Source: a virus. From it: a stretch of DNA of 28,029 nt. This document shows, one piece after another, positions 22,801-27,085 of the stretch. A program made the position numbers and the translations under genes. The notes below the pieces were generated by a model. The model was not told the DNA's origin. It did not search any database and was given only the letters and a program-made list of their open reading frames with translations. The stretch covers positions 1 to 28,029 of IMG/VR virus record IMGVR_UViG_3300028384_000032. One strand, 5' to 3'. The stretch's first letter is position 1. Each line of letters opens with the position of its first letter.

Positions 22801-23327
22801 CTACACGTGAAGGAGAGATCTATGATCCTAACCCATTCGCTCGTCTGTTTGGTATTACTATTAAGCCAGGCCGTACTGCTACAGAGAAAACATATTCAAT
22901 GGCAGAGATGCAGCCTTGGACAGCCAATGAGCGTACCAAGGTACCAGCATACGACAAAGCTCTGAATGCTATGCTTGCTCCAGTATTAGAGCAGCAAACA
23001 AACAGGCTACTTGCTACTGAAGAGTTCACTAAAGGTAACCTCACCCAGCGCCGTGCAATGCTTAAGAAAGTAATGCGTGATGCTAAGAAGCAAATCAAAG
23101 AGCGTATGGAAAAAGGCTATGGTGGTGGCGAAAGCGTACACCTACGCATGGTTGCTAAAGCTAATAGCAAGTACAATAAAGAGATACGCAACGAAGCAGC
23201 AAAGGCTATGAAAGAAACCTTTGGCATAGAGGGTAGCTTAGAAGATTATAGCTTCGCTGAGTTGGATCTGTTTATGGAATACGCAGATTATCTAAACGAT
23301 ATGTATCAAGAGGCTGCTAGTTTTTAG
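19878..23327 (+). CDS. Very large internal virion (ejection) protein, T7 gp16-like position
   Basis: A 1149-residue protein. The N-terminus has MQPIRDYMIERKGVDYKKL and VQHMRYFNANTVSTAGEVRF. Next comes GDYVFAAAKDPTNYLGLLTG, with a Gly/Ala-rich hydrophobic stretch that may insert into membrane, then a long Ala/Arg/Lys-rich helical part (residues about 165-260). A second amphipathic region near 275-310 (TGFSSLLGGVAGAAQLGFG) and one near 515-560 (WKRLLVSSPATTALNVAGFG) are also hydrophobic. The rest is helical to the end. It is the last gene of the rightward block and overlaps the convergent gene at 23317 by 11 bases. Size and position match the largest ejection protein of short-tailed phages. No transglycosylase motif is evident. 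Confidence 0.65.
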   Translation: MAFYNLDNYLDSIGAPSEVESTPEPIFSDDVKLTVNDLKKNTMYMQPIRDYMIERKGVDYKKLSDEEVVDDFVQHMRYFNANTVSTAGEVRFVSKANDRQKQTARRAYDIYDQLGNVFQNDGLMGAVSGVGDYVFAAAKDPTNYLGLLTGGLGRAAAGGVSITGKQAVKAAVQRAGREALQSGATMETARKAAEAAGREAARRAASQGMGKRASNNVYKNVTDKVQKEGRRAIAKDAMRAKQRELFETAATRSLYQTTALDSTAAVLQDVMAQQAQLEVGSQEKYSYLQTGFSSLLGGVAGAAQLGFGKMRGKSGLEDTTSELDKLTARTIEEYSPIIKEKDSAEAAKTIGDAIDKWNAKVEKGTPGYKDIDESQLIKEMIFGEPNDEGKIGGLAGFFRDKGYQISKEVHVSDVITNVANSLTQEELQGINKVMGKYTSMQFGNLSGSRVKLGDLMAARLSEAGKTLNMASQLSKMMDSGLLAASKKIDDQVGEIDAKEAAKAKGADKLRYGQSVWKRLLVSSPATTALNVAGFGQFYIGQTIADLFSSTALMTQGLAQLATNRKAAQESFRQASALRMVQAQKIRNLLDPYTTHDAYMKFLDENKDVEKILFETMAGGVEQKASRYGINPNDPTYRKIESVANAANQITGVRIQDTFTKSQMFMTEMDKYLRLEKGTTLKEAMLSDDTIIDEKVIQAALDGTLKSVFAKDYTTAEQPELVRTAAKLVENLSNTPGIGTLIPFGRFFNNVLATAYQWSPLAAPELILKPFYKKIAKQEARDITEMEAYSRMVVGTTGILLASEYDTQRREQGLGVYEVDVGGGTIVDAKNTFPFSAFLAAGRIFNMRRNNETVPPELIQELGTQVAIGQVARDAQFGNDLNNLIDIMINADEGARGATFDAFAKAAGNFVAGTTRPLDAFNKVVGFAMGTDGAKDVRQADGFNIFTQTSTKYIDNILEAFIDKTDTITGEDLAVATREGEIYDPNPFARLFGITIKPGRTATEKTYSMAEMQPWTANERTKVPAYDKALNAMLAPVLEQQTNRLLATEEFTKGNLTQRRAMLKKVMRDAKKQIKERMEKGYGGGESVHLRMVAKANSKYNKEIRNEAAKAMKETFGIEGSLEDYSFAELDLFMEYADYLNDMYQEAASF

Positions 23328-23523
23328 TGCCGTGACATTCGGCTGACTCCTCTGCCCACAACGTACAAGCTTGCAAGTGTGTCTTAGCTTGATCTGTTTC
23401 GTGGCAGGGGTGTAAGCTATTATCAATGTACTCCTCTACATAAGTGATATACTCACGTAGCTGCTCTTTAAACTGCGCTCTCTTCTTGACTATGTGTTCC
23501 ATAGCTTCTTGTTCTAGTTTCAT
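23317..23523 (-). CDS. Two-helix hairpin protein resembling Acb2/Tad1 hairpin
   Basis: A 68-residue protein predicted as two long helices: residues about 4-36 (QFKEQLREYITYVEEYIDN) and 42-63, joined by a short HPCHET turn. The second helix reads QAKTHLQACTLWAEESAE. From memory this fits the hairpin of the Acb2/Tad1 group, whose second helix has A.T.L..A..W(A) after a short P/E-rich turn. Members bind cyclic nucleotides and block CBASS or Thoeris immunity. Its start overlaps the upstream stop (ATGA), so it is coupled to the GIY-YIG gene, and it is the last gene of the leftward operon. The assignment rests on a short motif, so treat it as a lead. Confidence 0.5.
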   Translation of the reverse strand: MKLEQEAMEHIVKKRAQFKEQLREYITYVEEYIDNSLHPCHETDQAKTHLQACTLWAEESAECHGTKN

Positions 23524-24134
23524 CCTAATCTCTCTGCGTAAGAAAACAAATCAAGGGGTTTGTCCTCAATCTGTTTAGGCTCTTCTTTAATTGTAACATG
23601 TACAACAATAGAGTCCAAGACTTTCTTTGCTTGATCTAAAGGTAGCTTGAACCACTCTCCTTGGACTTCACTAGCTAACTTTGCTGCTTTAGTATGTGCT
23701 TGTTGTTCTGCTTTACGTCTATCGTCAGAGTAAACGCTGTATTCTAAGACGTAATCTCTAAACGGGCTACCTGTTTGATAGCCTTTTAGTCTGTCTTCTG
23801 CATCAAAAGCCATACCTATTTTAACCCAACCAACCCAAGCTTTATTTGTTATAGCGTAGACATAACCTATCTTACTGTCGTTATTCTCTTTTGAAGAGAC
23901 AACACTATCGTCTAATATTTTATAATTCCCTGGCTTAAACATCTTGTAGCGTGGGTCTTTTCGTGAAATGTATTTACCATTTATGTATAAAGCTAGAGGG
24001 TTATTTACTTTATTATTCTTAGCGTTAAACTTAGTGTTAAAACATGTTCTGCATATTCTAATATTATTCTTTTTGTATGACTTGTTCCAGTTATCATCTG
24101 TTAGTTGTTCGGAACACTCGTAGCATATAGCCAT
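23520..24134 (-). CDS. Zinc-finger GIY-YIG / T5orf172-type nuclease-like protein
   Basis: A 204-residue protein. The N-terminal finger uses C4, C7, C28 and C31 (CYEC ... CRTC). After a Lys/Asn-rich linker, residues 89-185 match the T5orf172/MUG113 branch of GIY-YIG: GYVYAITN, WVKIGMAFDAEDRLKGYQTG with R115, a conserved AEQQAH Glu, and GEWFKLPLDQA. Such proteins cut or bind DNA and some are mobile. I chose the ATG at 24134 rather than the in-frame GTG at 24170, which would begin inside the hairpin terminator. An AGGGAA lies upstream. The part encoding the finger and linker (about 23880-24110) is visibly more AT-rich than its neighbours. Confidence 0.7.
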   Translation of the reverse strand: MAICYECSEQLTDDNWNKSYKKNNIRICRTCFNTKFNAKNNKVNNPLALYINGKYISRKDPRYKMFKPGNYKILDDSVVSSKENNDSKIGYVYAITNKAWVGWVKIGMAFDAEDRLKGYQTGSPFRDYVLEYSVYSDDRRKAEQQAHTKAAKLASEVQGEWFKLPLDQAKKVLDSIVVHVTIKEEPKQIEDKPLDLFSYAERLG

Positions 24135-24157
24135 TCTATATTTCCCTGCATAGTAAA

Positions 24158-24195
24158 GCCTAGCAATCACATCGACTGCTAGGCGTTTTTGTTTT
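24158..24195 (+). terminator. Rho-independent terminator, + direction
   Basis: GCCTAGCA (24158-24165) and TGCTAGGC (24177-24184) form a perfect eight-pair stem around an 11-base loop, followed by GTTTTTGTTTT. In the + direction this is a strong terminator. In the - direction only TTTAC follows the stem, so it would be weak there. It would stop rightward late transcripts that pass the last structural gene, about 830 bases downstream of it. Confidence 0.8.
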
Positions 24196-24343
24196 AAGCA
24201 TCTGGATTGATTTTATCTTCTACGTATTCGTAACCAGCTTTAGCTTTATCCCAGCCGTACTGTGCCGCTGGTTCTACTACTTCAGTAATTACGCCAATGG
24301 TTAAACCGAAAGCAGTAAGAGTAACTAAGATAGTCTCTAACAT
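24194..24343 (-). CDS. 49-residue membrane peptide
   Basis: A short frame starting at ATG 24343, overlapping the glutaredoxin stop (24337-24339), and ending at TAA 24194-24196 on the edge of the terminator. The sequence runs MLETILVTLTAFGLTIGVIT, then EVVEPAAQYGWDKAKAGYEY and VEDKINPDA. Residues 4-22 form one membrane helix; the rest is soluble and helical. Overlap with its neighbour and codon-clean reading support a real gene. AAGGAAT lies before the start. It resembles no family I can name; a small holin-like or membrane-anchored regulator is possible. Confidence 0.6.
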   Translation of the reverse strand: MLETILVTLTAFGLTIGVITEVVEPAAQYGWDKAKAGYEYVEDKINPDA

Positions 24344-24564
24344 GTAAGGTATTCCTTTAGTTCTGTGTACCCTCCAATGTGCGTCCCCTTGTCATTGAAG
24401 ATCTGTGGTACTGTGGTTATACTGGAACGCTTCAATAAGTATAGCAACCATGCACTAGACTTAGATTGAATATTGTATTCTGCATATTGAATGTTTTTAC
24501 CCTTCATCAGAGCCTTGGCATCGTCGCAGAAGTTACATTGATCACGTGTGATTATCACGTACAT
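24337..24564 (-). CDS. grx: Glutaredoxin
   Basis: A 75-residue thioredoxin-fold protein with the redox motif C10-N-F-C13, TVPQIF at 51-56 with its cis-proline, and GGYTEL at 64-69, the glutathione-binding end of glutaredoxins. It would use glutathione to reduce disulfides, here most likely the C-terminal cysteine pair of the ribonucleotide reductase encoded two genes upstream. GGAGA lies five bases before the ATG. It overlaps the end of the DUF1289 gene by 23 bases. Its short length is typical of phage glutaredoxins. Confidence 0.9.
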   Translation of the reverse strand: MYVIITRDQCNFCDDAKALMKGKNIQYAEYNIQSKSSAWLLYLLKRSSITTVPQIFNDKGTHIGGYTELKEYLTC

Positions 24565-24742
24565 CTTTTCTCCATTTCAGTTCATATAACAGTTTCTTCT
24601 GTTCGTATTCAGACATTATCATCCAATCACGTATCTCGTCAACTGTTCTCTTACACCCCACACACTCGTCGTTTTCAAGGCGACATATACGTATGCAGGG
24701 CGACGGTGTTTTACCTAAGCGGTGAGGTCTACGATTTCGCAT
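24542..24742 (-). CDS. DUF1289 four-cysteine protein
   Basis: A 66-residue protein with C16-x3-C20 (SPCIRIC) and C27-x2-C30 (ECVGC), then RTVDEIRDWMIMSEYEQKKL. This is the DUF1289 signature; bacterial relatives are annotated as predicted Fe-S proteins (YdhL-like), though metal binding is not established to my knowledge. It starts inside the reductase gene, overlapping it by 28 bases, and overlaps the glutaredoxin by 23, so the three are translated together. A role linked to redox or cofactor handling of the reductase is inferred from context. Confidence 0.8.
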   Translation of the reverse strand: MRNRRPHRLGKTPSPCIRICRLENDECVGCKRTVDEIRDWMIMSEYEQKKLLYELKWRKDVRDNHT

Positions 24743-26619
24743 GAGTCACCAGAGCAAGCCATTGTCTGCATCGCTACAGTATTATCCTCTTGCTCATACT
24801 CAGATAACCTAGTCCAGTCTACATTAGTTGGCATCTTAGCTAGTAGCTCTTCGTACTCTTCCTTAGTGCAGTCCTGATACGGTGCTTGCTGATAAGTATG
24901 ATCTGAGTGTGGCAAGAATGACACACCTGACATCTCATCGAAGTACTTATACACGAATGCACCTACCTCTAGCCACTCATGGTCACGTACTGAGATAGTC
25001 ACCGATGGTTTATGCTCACACCAGTGACGCTGATACGTTAACCACATCTCTAGCTGTTCGATAGCAGTCATATCATTACGTGTCACAGCACCTGCAGGTG
25101 ACTTCTGAGGGAAGCTGAAGACTGTAGTAGTATCCCCCTTGAATACACATGGCTCGTTAGGAATACCCTGATCAATCATCATCTGTGTTAGTGGGTCTTT
25201 GTTATCACCACGTACAGTGCGGATATAAAAGGGGCTATGACGAGCATGTATACCACTGGCGCTATCCACCAACTGCGAGACAGTACCGCTAGGCTTGACG
25301 CAGGTAATTGAAGCGCTATGAGGGATACCAAGACGATCAGCCCACTCAGCGTTAGTGGCGACAGCAATACTTCGTAGATGCTCAAGAGTTTTCTCCAATC
25401 CTCTGTTCTTAGCAGTCATAAGGGGATTATCCATAATACCTGTCAAAGACACACCAAGTAGACGTTCCTCTTCTGTGTTACGCTGCCAGTCTTTAGATAG
25501 GTACGGGAACTTTGTGTAAGTAGACTGAATTGTACCAATGATAGTAGCAAGTTTAACCTTACGCTCGATATCCTCAATACTGTCTGTAGCACGGATGATA
25601 CACTCAGAAAGGTTGCAAAACTGCGAATTTAACAAGATGATTTCACTACACGGATTTGTCCCGAAGTCTTTATCTGGATTACGTCTACCATTCTTTGCTG
25701 CTTGCTTCTGTGATGCTTGACGATTGAACACACCACGCTCACCAGATTTGGACTCTACAAGAGCAGTCCATTCACGCATAAATGTCTCAATGTCAGGCTT
25801 CTCTGTGTATGCTACAGAGTTATTAGCCAAGGCACGGTGTGCTGCAGTCTCCCACCACTGTCCTGACTTAGCGTGACGCATACGGTCATCTGACAAGTTA
25901 GACAAAGAGATCATAGCAGAACGGCGTACACCACCCACCACAACAATCTGACCAATGAAACACATCAGGTCATGACATTCCATGCTAGACAGCTTACGGC
26001 CTTGTGCATTCTTGAATGTAGCTACAGCGAAGTTAAACAGTTCTACCAAAGGCGCTGGGCCTGACGCACGTCCACCGAATGTCTTTAGTCGTGCACCTGC
26101 AGGGCGTACCTTTGATACATCCCACTTTGGAATCTCACCTGACCACAGCAATGCTAGTAGCTGACGGAATGCCTTAGCCCAACCTTCTTTGCTGTCTTTG
26201 ACTACAATGGTTGTCTCACTATCAAACAGTTGCTCTGGCACCTCTGGTAGCTTACTGATGTACTGGCGCTCTACAGAGAACCCTACACCTGTACCACACA
26301 GTAGGATGAACATAGCCTCATCAAAGCGTGTAGGCTTATCTACAGCCACGTAAGAGCAGTTGTACATACATGTGTTGTCACGTGCTGCTGCTGGTCCTGC
26401 TGTCATCATAGAGCGCATAGATGGCATAATGTCTAGGTTAAGGATAGCTTCTTCAATCTGATTAATGTAAGAGTCGTCACCTGCTACTGGGCGTACAACG
26501 TTATCCATATAACGCTCTACTGTTTCGTCCCAATTCTCACGTCCCTTACCATCAAAGTACTTAGCGTACCGTGACTTGTGAATGAATGACTGATAGTCTG
26601 TTGGTAATAGATTGCTCAT
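24715..26619 (-). CDS. nrdJ: Adenosylcobalamin-dependent (class II) ribonucleotide reductase, monomeric type
   Basis: A 634-residue enzyme that reduces ribonucleoside triphosphates to deoxyribonucleotides with a B12 radical. All five expected cysteines are present: C88 (MYNC) and C335 (SQFC) as the active-site pair, C324 in NPCSE as the thiyl-radical site with N322 and E326, and C622/C627 at the tail (ACSGDSC) that relay electrons. PSGTVSQL at 443-450 is the phosphate-binding loop. Length is shorter than the 739-residue Lactobacillus enzyme, as in many phages. Its start overlaps the stop of the small membrane peptide (ATGA). No B12 riboswitch is visible. Glutaredoxin downstream is the probable reductant. 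Confidence 0.93.
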   Translation of the reverse strand: MSNLLPTDYQSFIHKSRYAKYFDGKGRENWDETVERYMDNVVRPVAGDDSYINQIEEAILNLDIMPSMRSMMTAGPAAARDNTCMYNCSYVAVDKPTRFDEAMFILLCGTGVGFSVERQYISKLPEVPEQLFDSETTIVVKDSKEGWAKAFRQLLALLWSGEIPKWDVSKVRPAGARLKTFGGRASGPAPLVELFNFAVATFKNAQGRKLSSMECHDLMCFIGQIVVVGGVRRSAMISLSNLSDDRMRHAKSGQWWETAAHRALANNSVAYTEKPDIETFMREWTALVESKSGERGVFNRQASQKQAAKNGRRNPDKDFGTNPCSEIILLNSQFCNLSECIIRATDSIEDIERKVKLATIIGTIQSTYTKFPYLSKDWQRNTEEERLLGVSLTGIMDNPLMTAKNRGLEKTLEHLRSIAVATNAEWADRLGIPHSASITCVKPSGTVSQLVDSASGIHARHSPFYIRTVRGDNKDPLTQMMIDQGIPNEPCVFKGDTTTVFSFPQKSPAGAVTRNDMTAIEQLEMWLTYQRHWCEHKPSVTISVRDHEWLEVGAFVYKYFDEMSGVSFLPHSDHTYQQAPYQDCTKEEYEELLAKMPTNVDWTRLSEYEQEDNTVAMQTMACSGDSCEIVDLTA

Positions 26620-26708
26620 TTCTTTTTAGTCTCCCCTATGGCAATAAACATAAATCCTAACACAATAATAAGTAGGATAGATATAGCTGTAACTACTGAA
26701 GTTATCAT
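26616..26708 (-). CDS. 30-residue single-helix membrane peptide
   Basis: A minimal frame between mazG and nrdJ: MITSVVTAISILLIIVLGFM then FIAIGETKKK. Residues 3-23 are a membrane helix and the end is Lys-rich (positive-inside). Its ATG overlaps the mazG stop (ATGA, 26705-26708) and its TGA overlaps the nrdJ ATG. Without it there would be an 85-base untranslated gap in an otherwise overlapping operon, which supports its being a gene. No family recognised. It might anchor or regulate a neighbour, or act on the host membrane. Confidence 0.65.
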   Translation of the reverse strand: MITSVVTAISILLIIVLGFMFIAIGETKKK

Positions 26709-27085
26709 CGATTATCCCCGCTTCCTCTTAGTTTATTTCGTTTCTGTCTGTCGTCTAGCTTTTGGATGTTAAGCTCTAGTATTTCTTGTAGCCCACGCCC
26801 ATATATGTTACCCAGCGCAGTAGCATAGAACACTACATCGCCAAGCTCCTTCATGATCTCTTCATTAGAAAAGCGGCTACTGTCACGTACTAGCTTCTTC
26901 ATCTTCTCTGCTACTTCACCTGCCTCACCAACAAGGCCAAGTGTATTCTCATACAAACGCTCTTGTCCTTCCGTAAGTATCTTCTTTTCTACCCAACCAG
27001 AGTAAAAGTCTGCCCAATTAACGGGGTCGGCATTTGGGAACATATCATAGTATCCCATACTCTCTAAGTCTTTCTCACTTATCAT
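26705..27085 (-). CDS. mazG: MazG-like nucleotide pyrophosphohydrolase
   Basis: A 126-residue single-domain MazG-like protein. The metal-binding pattern is visible as E54-A-G-E57 (LVGEAGEVAEKMKK) and E80-L-G-D83 (MKELGDVVFYATAL), with a helical NIQKLDDRQKRNKL end. Family members hydrolyse NTPs or dNTPs to monophosphates, and phage versions have been proposed to lower alarmone levels or recycle host nucleotides. It is coupled by ATGA overlaps to the 56-residue gene upstream and the membrane peptide downstream. The substrate cannot be read from sequence. Confidence 0.85.
   Translation of the reverse strand: MISEKDLESMGYYDMFPNADPVNWADFYSGWVEKKILTEGQERLYENTLGLVGEAGEVAEKMKKLVRDSSRFSNEEIMKELGDVVFYATALGNIYGRGLQEILELNIQKLDDRQKRNKLRGSGDNR

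Follow-up and report, generated by a model that had tools for sequence, protein, structure and literature searches.

A small phage protein that very probably belongs to the Acb2/Tad1 hairpin superfamily

Results

The last gene of a nucleotide-metabolism operon in a viral DNA of 28,029 nucleotides (the whole stretch that was analysed, here called the window) encodes a protein of 68 amino acids that we assign with high confidence to the Acb2/Tad1 hairpin superfamily. By analogy with the characterised members of this superfamily, the protein is probably a sponge or sponge-derived. The coordinates of the gene and of its surroundings are given in Table 1.

Table 1. The hairpin gene, its predicted helices and neighbouring features of the window
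Feature	Position	Strand	Remarks
Diverged Acb2/Tad1-hairpin-family protein, 68 aa	23317..23523	-	ORF, profile and model evidence
Predicted helix 1, residues 2-36	23416..23520	-	N-terminal third replaces canonical aromatic loop
Predicted helix 2, residues 41-64	23332..23403	-	A46, C53 and A57 at Acb2 oligomer-interface positions; L50, W56
Nuclease-like gene, MUG113/T5orf172 domain	23520..24170	-	Start probably the ATG at 24137; cassette exchanged among relatives
Terminator-like stem, 12 pairs	24158..24184	-	Between a 49-aa ORF and the nuclease; within block common to L003
Convergent gene, probable virion protein, 1149 aa	19878..23327	+	Overlaps hairpin gene end by 11 nt
Glutaredoxin	24337..24564	-	Same operon, context
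Ribonucleotide reductase	24715..26619	-	Same operon, context
MazG-like pyrophosphohydrolase	26705..27085	-	Same operon, context

The hairpin gene is conserved and keeps its place at the operon end

The hairpin ORF begins with an ATG that shares nucleotides, as ATGA, with the TGA stop codon of the nuclease ORF upstream, and its 3′ end shares 11 nt with the end of the convergent gene. Homologs of 66-69 amino acids are encoded in many IMG/VR contigs and in the isolated roseophages CRP-603, CRP-2 and CRP-207. Codon changes relative to the window gene are mostly synonymous in the closest relatives (7 synonymous and 0 nonsynonymous in L003, 5 and 1 in L006, 13 and 8 in L007); in L008 the ratio is 9 synonymous to 14 nonsynonymous, yet dN/dS is approximately 0.3. 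Because of this pattern the ORF is a real gene, coding for a conserved protein under purifying selection. The 68-residue ORF noted at the operon end in a preliminary description, which had been made from the sequence alone, is thus borne out by its ATG start, the length of its homologs and the excess of synonymous changes. A pattern scan of bacterial species genomes, which reaches close relatives only, did not find the family there.

CRP-603 and CRP-207 are counted among the HMO-2011-type phages (PMC9038755). The end of the convergent gene is 74% identical to CRP-207 and 50% to CRP-603, and the window therefore most likely belongs to the HMO-2011-type roseophage group. In these phages the hairpin gene has a constant position: it is the last gene of an operon with the genes for MazG, ribonucleotide reductase (RNR) and glutaredoxin, and is preceded by a PhoH or a nuclease gene. 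A gene for a DUF1289 protein (66 amino acids, 24542-24742) lies between the RNR and glutaredoxin genes of the window and is kept in many relatives.

Genes for Acb2 are, like the window gene, found near genes of nucleotide metabolism. Such a neighbourhood recurs for Acb2-type hairpins (L048, L052, L011, L010): the neighbours are RNR in Aeromonas phage 25, ThyX in Gordonia phage Remus, thymidylate synthase in phiCB2047-B and the thymidine kinase region in T4.

The upstream nuclease is exchanged while the hairpin stays constant

The preliminary description had placed a nuclease-like gene beside the hairpin gene, where two convergent modules meet, and the adjoining gene indeed carries a MUG113/T5orf172 domain, which we take to be of the GIY-YIG type. 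In L003, L006, L007 and L008 this nuclease is replaced by an HNH endonuclease VII; the swapped region corresponds to positions 23536-24148 of the window, and its flanks are 77-97% identical. The alignment with L003 extends to the region of the terminator-like stem, is lost directly behind the conserved 5′ block, over the length of the nuclease, and picks up again 12 nt ahead of the hairpin ATG.

The ATGA overlap of the two genes and a weak match to an endonuclease VII profile (phrog_423, E 0.0078) could indicate that the hairpin protein is a small partner of the nuclease, either an inhibitor or an accessory subunit. However, the hairpin protein is 100% identical in L003 and 99% identical in L006 beside the unrelated HNH enzyme, and many relatives have PhoH in front of it in place of a nuclease. 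Since the identical protein of L003 stands beside an HNH endonuclease VII, the hairpin is not tied to one nuclease. A partner role is very improbable; we rejected it because the hairpin gene stays in place where the nuclease next to it is exchanged.

In L004 the DNA match is restricted to the 3′ part of the nuclease gene, suggesting a hybrid. The terminator-like stem, a strong one, is located just upstream of the probable ATG of the nuclease, and the mechanically listed GTG start (24170) falls inside it. Expression of nuclease and hairpin may depend on read-through of this stem.

Profile comparisons point to homology with the Acb2/Tad1 hairpin

In a single-sequence Pfam scan the window protein matched Acb2_Tad1_hairpin (PF24729) with 17.3 bits (E 0.0054), below the curated cut-off of 27 bits, and RasGAP_C scored slightly better. 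None of the 26 family members reaches the PF24729 cut-off (best E 0.0012); PF24729 is the sole recurrent Pfam match, found for 19 of the 26 at E≤0.05. A phmmer search of the PDB with the single window protein gave no match, and PADLOC and NCBIfam were uninformative on the protein. Taken with the fact that two-helix hairpins are common, the match below the cut-off and the slightly better RasGAP_C score might indicate convergence, that is, an unrelated hairpin resembling Acb2/Tad1 by composition only.

Against convergence stand the comparisons of whole profiles with their shuffle and reversal controls. Alignment of the family with 17 Acb2-type hairpins by hhalign gave a probability of 95 and a score of 43, whereas the best of 200 column shuffles scored 16.6 and the reversed profile 9.3. 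A HMMER profile of 17 Acb2-type hairpins assigned 16.8 bits to the window protein, compared to 13.5 for the best of 20,000 shuffled family sequences; the real members span 10.6-19.3 bits, some thus scoring below the best shuffle. When 177,635 PDB sequences were searched with the family profile, three matches were obtained at E≤10: Tad1 (8kbb, E 0.15), Acb2 homolog 43 (9ptq, 0.45) and T4 Vs.4 (7uq2, 0.92). Individually these matches are weak, but all three are sponges, and this agreement exceeds chance expectation. Adding canonical hairpins to the profile brings the match to 9ptq to 2e-8, a value that is partly circular because these hairpins are then part of the query.

In addition, a gapless alignment spans the helix-turn-helix, and the ungapped similarity to hairpins of phiCB2047-B and a Gordonia phage reaches z values of up to 18 for the family and of 4-7.5 for the window protein. 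PHROG 1454 (81 positions, function unknown) matches the CRP-603 homolog at 4e-6 and also T4 Vs.4, in the hairpin, at 7e-4; its match to the window protein is only 0.029.

Convergence is thus very unlikely. The kinship to the Acb2/Tad1 hairpin that had been proposed from the sequence is well supported by family profiles, shuffle controls and structural comparison, although single sequences stay below the Pfam threshold.

The protein is predicted to fold as two helices, the first one extended

AlphaFold2, run with an alignment of 19 sequences, predicts helices at residues 2-36 and 41-64 (mean pLDDT 90.7) with HPCHET at the turn, in agreement with the two helices and short turn described before. 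In a viral structure library the first match is an unnamed homolog of 68 amino acids (37% identity) and the second is likewise unnamed; the ten that follow all bear the name Acb2/Tad1 hairpin domain-containing, with probabilities of 0.94-1.0 and an rmsd of mostly 0.7-2.0 Å. A fold search of the PDB returned generic helical matches, with no solved Acb2/Tad1 in the best 50 of 62, which for the predicted model is a mild argument against close structural identity to solved Acb2.

The canonical stand-alone hairpin of L076 (67 amino acids; single-sequence model, pLDDT 80.8) is predicted to have helices at 15-37 and 42-64 and an N-terminal loop, modelled with low confidence. Since its first helix begins at residue 15 and that of the window family at residue 2, helix 1 of the family appears to be extended by approximately 13 residues, replacing the N-terminal loop of the canonical hairpin. 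With 68 residues the protein is hairpin-only, as had been suggested, but this does not make it special: hairpin-domain proteins of 61-72 amino acids exist, and hairpin-only members of similar length are already in UniProt.

Interface positions are kept, ligand positions are changed

Acb2 (T4 Vs.4, PaP2 p26 and homolog 43 of 9ptq) and the window protein are both small stand-alone phage proteins with a helix-turn-helix, and the pattern A-x3-L-x5-W-A of Vs.4 is also present in the window protein. Its second helix contains A46-K-T48-H-L50-Q-A52-C53-T-L-W56-A57. The motif A.TxLxxAxxWA, read in this helix in the preliminary description, is therefore correct for A46, T48, L50, W56 and A57, while the alanine placed at position 53 is a cysteine; Ala53 is present in 12 of the 26 members.

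Formation of the Vs.4 hexamer needs L29, A66, A73 and A77 (PMC10097602). A gapless alignment through helix 2 equates A66/A73/A77 with A46/C53/A57 and W76 with W56, and in the hhalign alignment of helix 1 L29 is matched by V29 and K23 by R23. V29 and C53 are conservative changes at the interface positions L29 and A73. Judged from these alignments, the hexamer-interface positions of Acb2 persist in the window protein. An earlier hand alignment with PaP2 K26 near residue 12 was dropped for the gapless alignment through helix 1.

The ligand contacts differ. Vs.4 holds cGAMP with Y8, H11, K23, R79 and F82 (PMC10097602). Acb2 proteins have an N-terminal GY segment and conserved K23/K26, R79 and F82, whereas the window protein has the extended helix 1. 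The aromatic segment (Y8/H11 in Vs.4, Y11 in PaP2) is without counterpart, residues 2-36 being helical, and R79 and F82 are replaced by E59 and E62. Position 23 is R in the window protein and R/Q/H/N/T/K across the family. Positions 23 and 59 are both basic (K/R) in none of the 26 members, and the residue pairs found there (R-E, R-L, K-L, N-L, Q-R, H-R, T-R) show no simple swap. With a helix extension in place of the N-terminal Tyr segment, and with Glu at the positions of R79 and F82, the window protein reads as a member of the hairpin superfamily and not as an Acb2 as defined by its pocket.

An arginine before helix 2 is common to Tad1 (KCRE) and many hairpins (GRE, NGRR); in the window protein this position is H41. 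Within the family the arginine is kept only in the clade of L085, L089, L099 and L100, and L094 has a lysine. This arginine may have a role in trinucleotide binding.

Across the 26 members the turn cysteine C40 is variable (C in 13, T in 11, S in 2). Neither C40 nor H41 is conserved, and for this reason we discarded the idea that the HPCHET turn binds a metal. Nearly invariant are E4, E6, A7, F18, L22, Y32, L37, L50, W56, A57, A61, H64, G65 and K67, and position 10 is F, Y or H (H in the window). From the alignment, E4, E6, the aromatic-type residue 10, H64, G65 and K67 would be located at the open end of the hairpin, the site of the Acb2 dinucleotide pocket.

Tad1 and a RyR fusion carry related hairpins

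The C-terminal hairpin of Tad1 (PDB 8kbb, 7uav) matches the family (Tad1 YKCRENAMAITKLQECLMW, family clade HDCREKERAREKLMEAKMW), whereas its N-terminal antiparallel beta-sheet domain is absent from the window protein, which is all helical over its 68 residues. Among canonical hairpins, the one nearest to the family forms the C-terminal part of SUFG_00048 from Sulfitobacter phage phiCB2047-B, another roseobacter phage. This hairpin and the 67-amino-acid hairpin of L076 and L077 align with family members without gaps over about 43 residues; against the SUFG_00048 hairpin, z is 18 for CRP-603, 17 for CRP-207 and 7.5 for the window protein. The SUFG_00048, L076 and L077 hairpins keep the aromatic D-x-F-N-P, the lysine in GIK and NGRRR before helix 2, in which they differ from the window protein.

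SUFG_00048 (L011:3575-4141) combines in one chain a RyR domain and an Acb2/Tad1 hairpin, each scoring above its Pfam cut-off, and possibly represents a two-part protein against nucleotide immune signals. The 67-residue hairpins (L076:2983-3186 and L077:2983-3186) are approximately 80% identical to that of the fusion, and no RyR match was found in the flanks searched. RyR proteins related to SUFG_00048 but without the hairpin are encoded in L066 and L068-L075; the RyR protein of L067 has a longer and different C-terminal part. In a search of the records of seven relatives of the window and of phiCB2047-B, the RyR domain (PF02026) was found in phiCB2047-B only, and the window protein has no RyR match. 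A pattern scan of bacterial species genomes, reaching close relatives only, did not find the RyR-hairpin protein. According to a 2026 preprint, phage RyR-domain proteins, one of them from a Ruegeria phage, degrade or sequester Thoeris cADPR signals (PMC13232231); a text search of it found no mention of Acb2, Tad1 or hairpin.

Discussion

The characterised hairpin carriers, Acb2 and Tad1, sequester immune nucleotides (PMC12043709, PMC10097602). From this activity of the relatives and from the conservation of the family, the case for a sponge function of the window protein, the role suggested in the preliminary description, is evenly balanced. The protein would form a small homo-oligomer via the conserved A-x3-L-x5-W-A face of helix 2, as the conserved interface positions suggest, and would bind, without enzymatic activity, a nucleotide-type alarm signal of the host (CBASS, Thoeris or similar). 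It would be made together with the nucleotide-metabolism operon, presumably early. If the protein is a sponge, its ligand site would be re-tooled, because the dinucleotide contacts of Acb2 are mostly missing; the residues E4, E6, 10, H64, G65 and K67 would then lie where Acb2 holds cyclic dinucleotides. This complete mechanism, in which a hairpin-only member of the superfamily acts as a small sponge that oligomerises and has a re-tooled pocket, is the most likely of the readings considered, and we likewise give it an even chance.

In the sequence the mostly absent nucleotide contacts, together with the lack of an arginine before helix 2, speak against a sponge. The main rival is an adaptor for oligomerisation or protein-protein contacts that lost nucleotide binding or never had it, for instance a scaffold for a nucleotide-metabolism protein of phage or host. 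Such an adaptor would fit the retention of interface positions beside the loss of known ligand contacts, the occurrence of the hairpin both alone and fused to a RyR domain, and the nucleotide metabolism of the operon. It would leave unexplained why E4, H64, G65 and K67, for which no role in packing is apparent, are conserved at the end that in Acb2 receives the ligand, and the characterised superfamily members act on immune nucleotides; we consider this reading possible but somewhat doubtful.

A more specific form of the sponge reading is that marine roseophages have a clade of hairpin-only sponges in which the dinucleotide pocket of Acb2 gave way to a helix extension with new conserved residues, directed at a signal outside the known Acb2/Tad1 range. 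We put this forward as a speculative and rather unlikely proposal.

With this family, the Acb2/Tad1 hairpin superfamily reaches into the HMO-2011-type roseophages, where present cut-offs fail to recognise it although its position in the operon is constant. Since the clade retains the interface positions and has altered ligand residues, it offers a natural test of the hairpin's primary role, as a ligand pocket or as a module for oligomerisation. It could also be a sign that marine Rhodobacteraceae use an immune signal not yet recognised.
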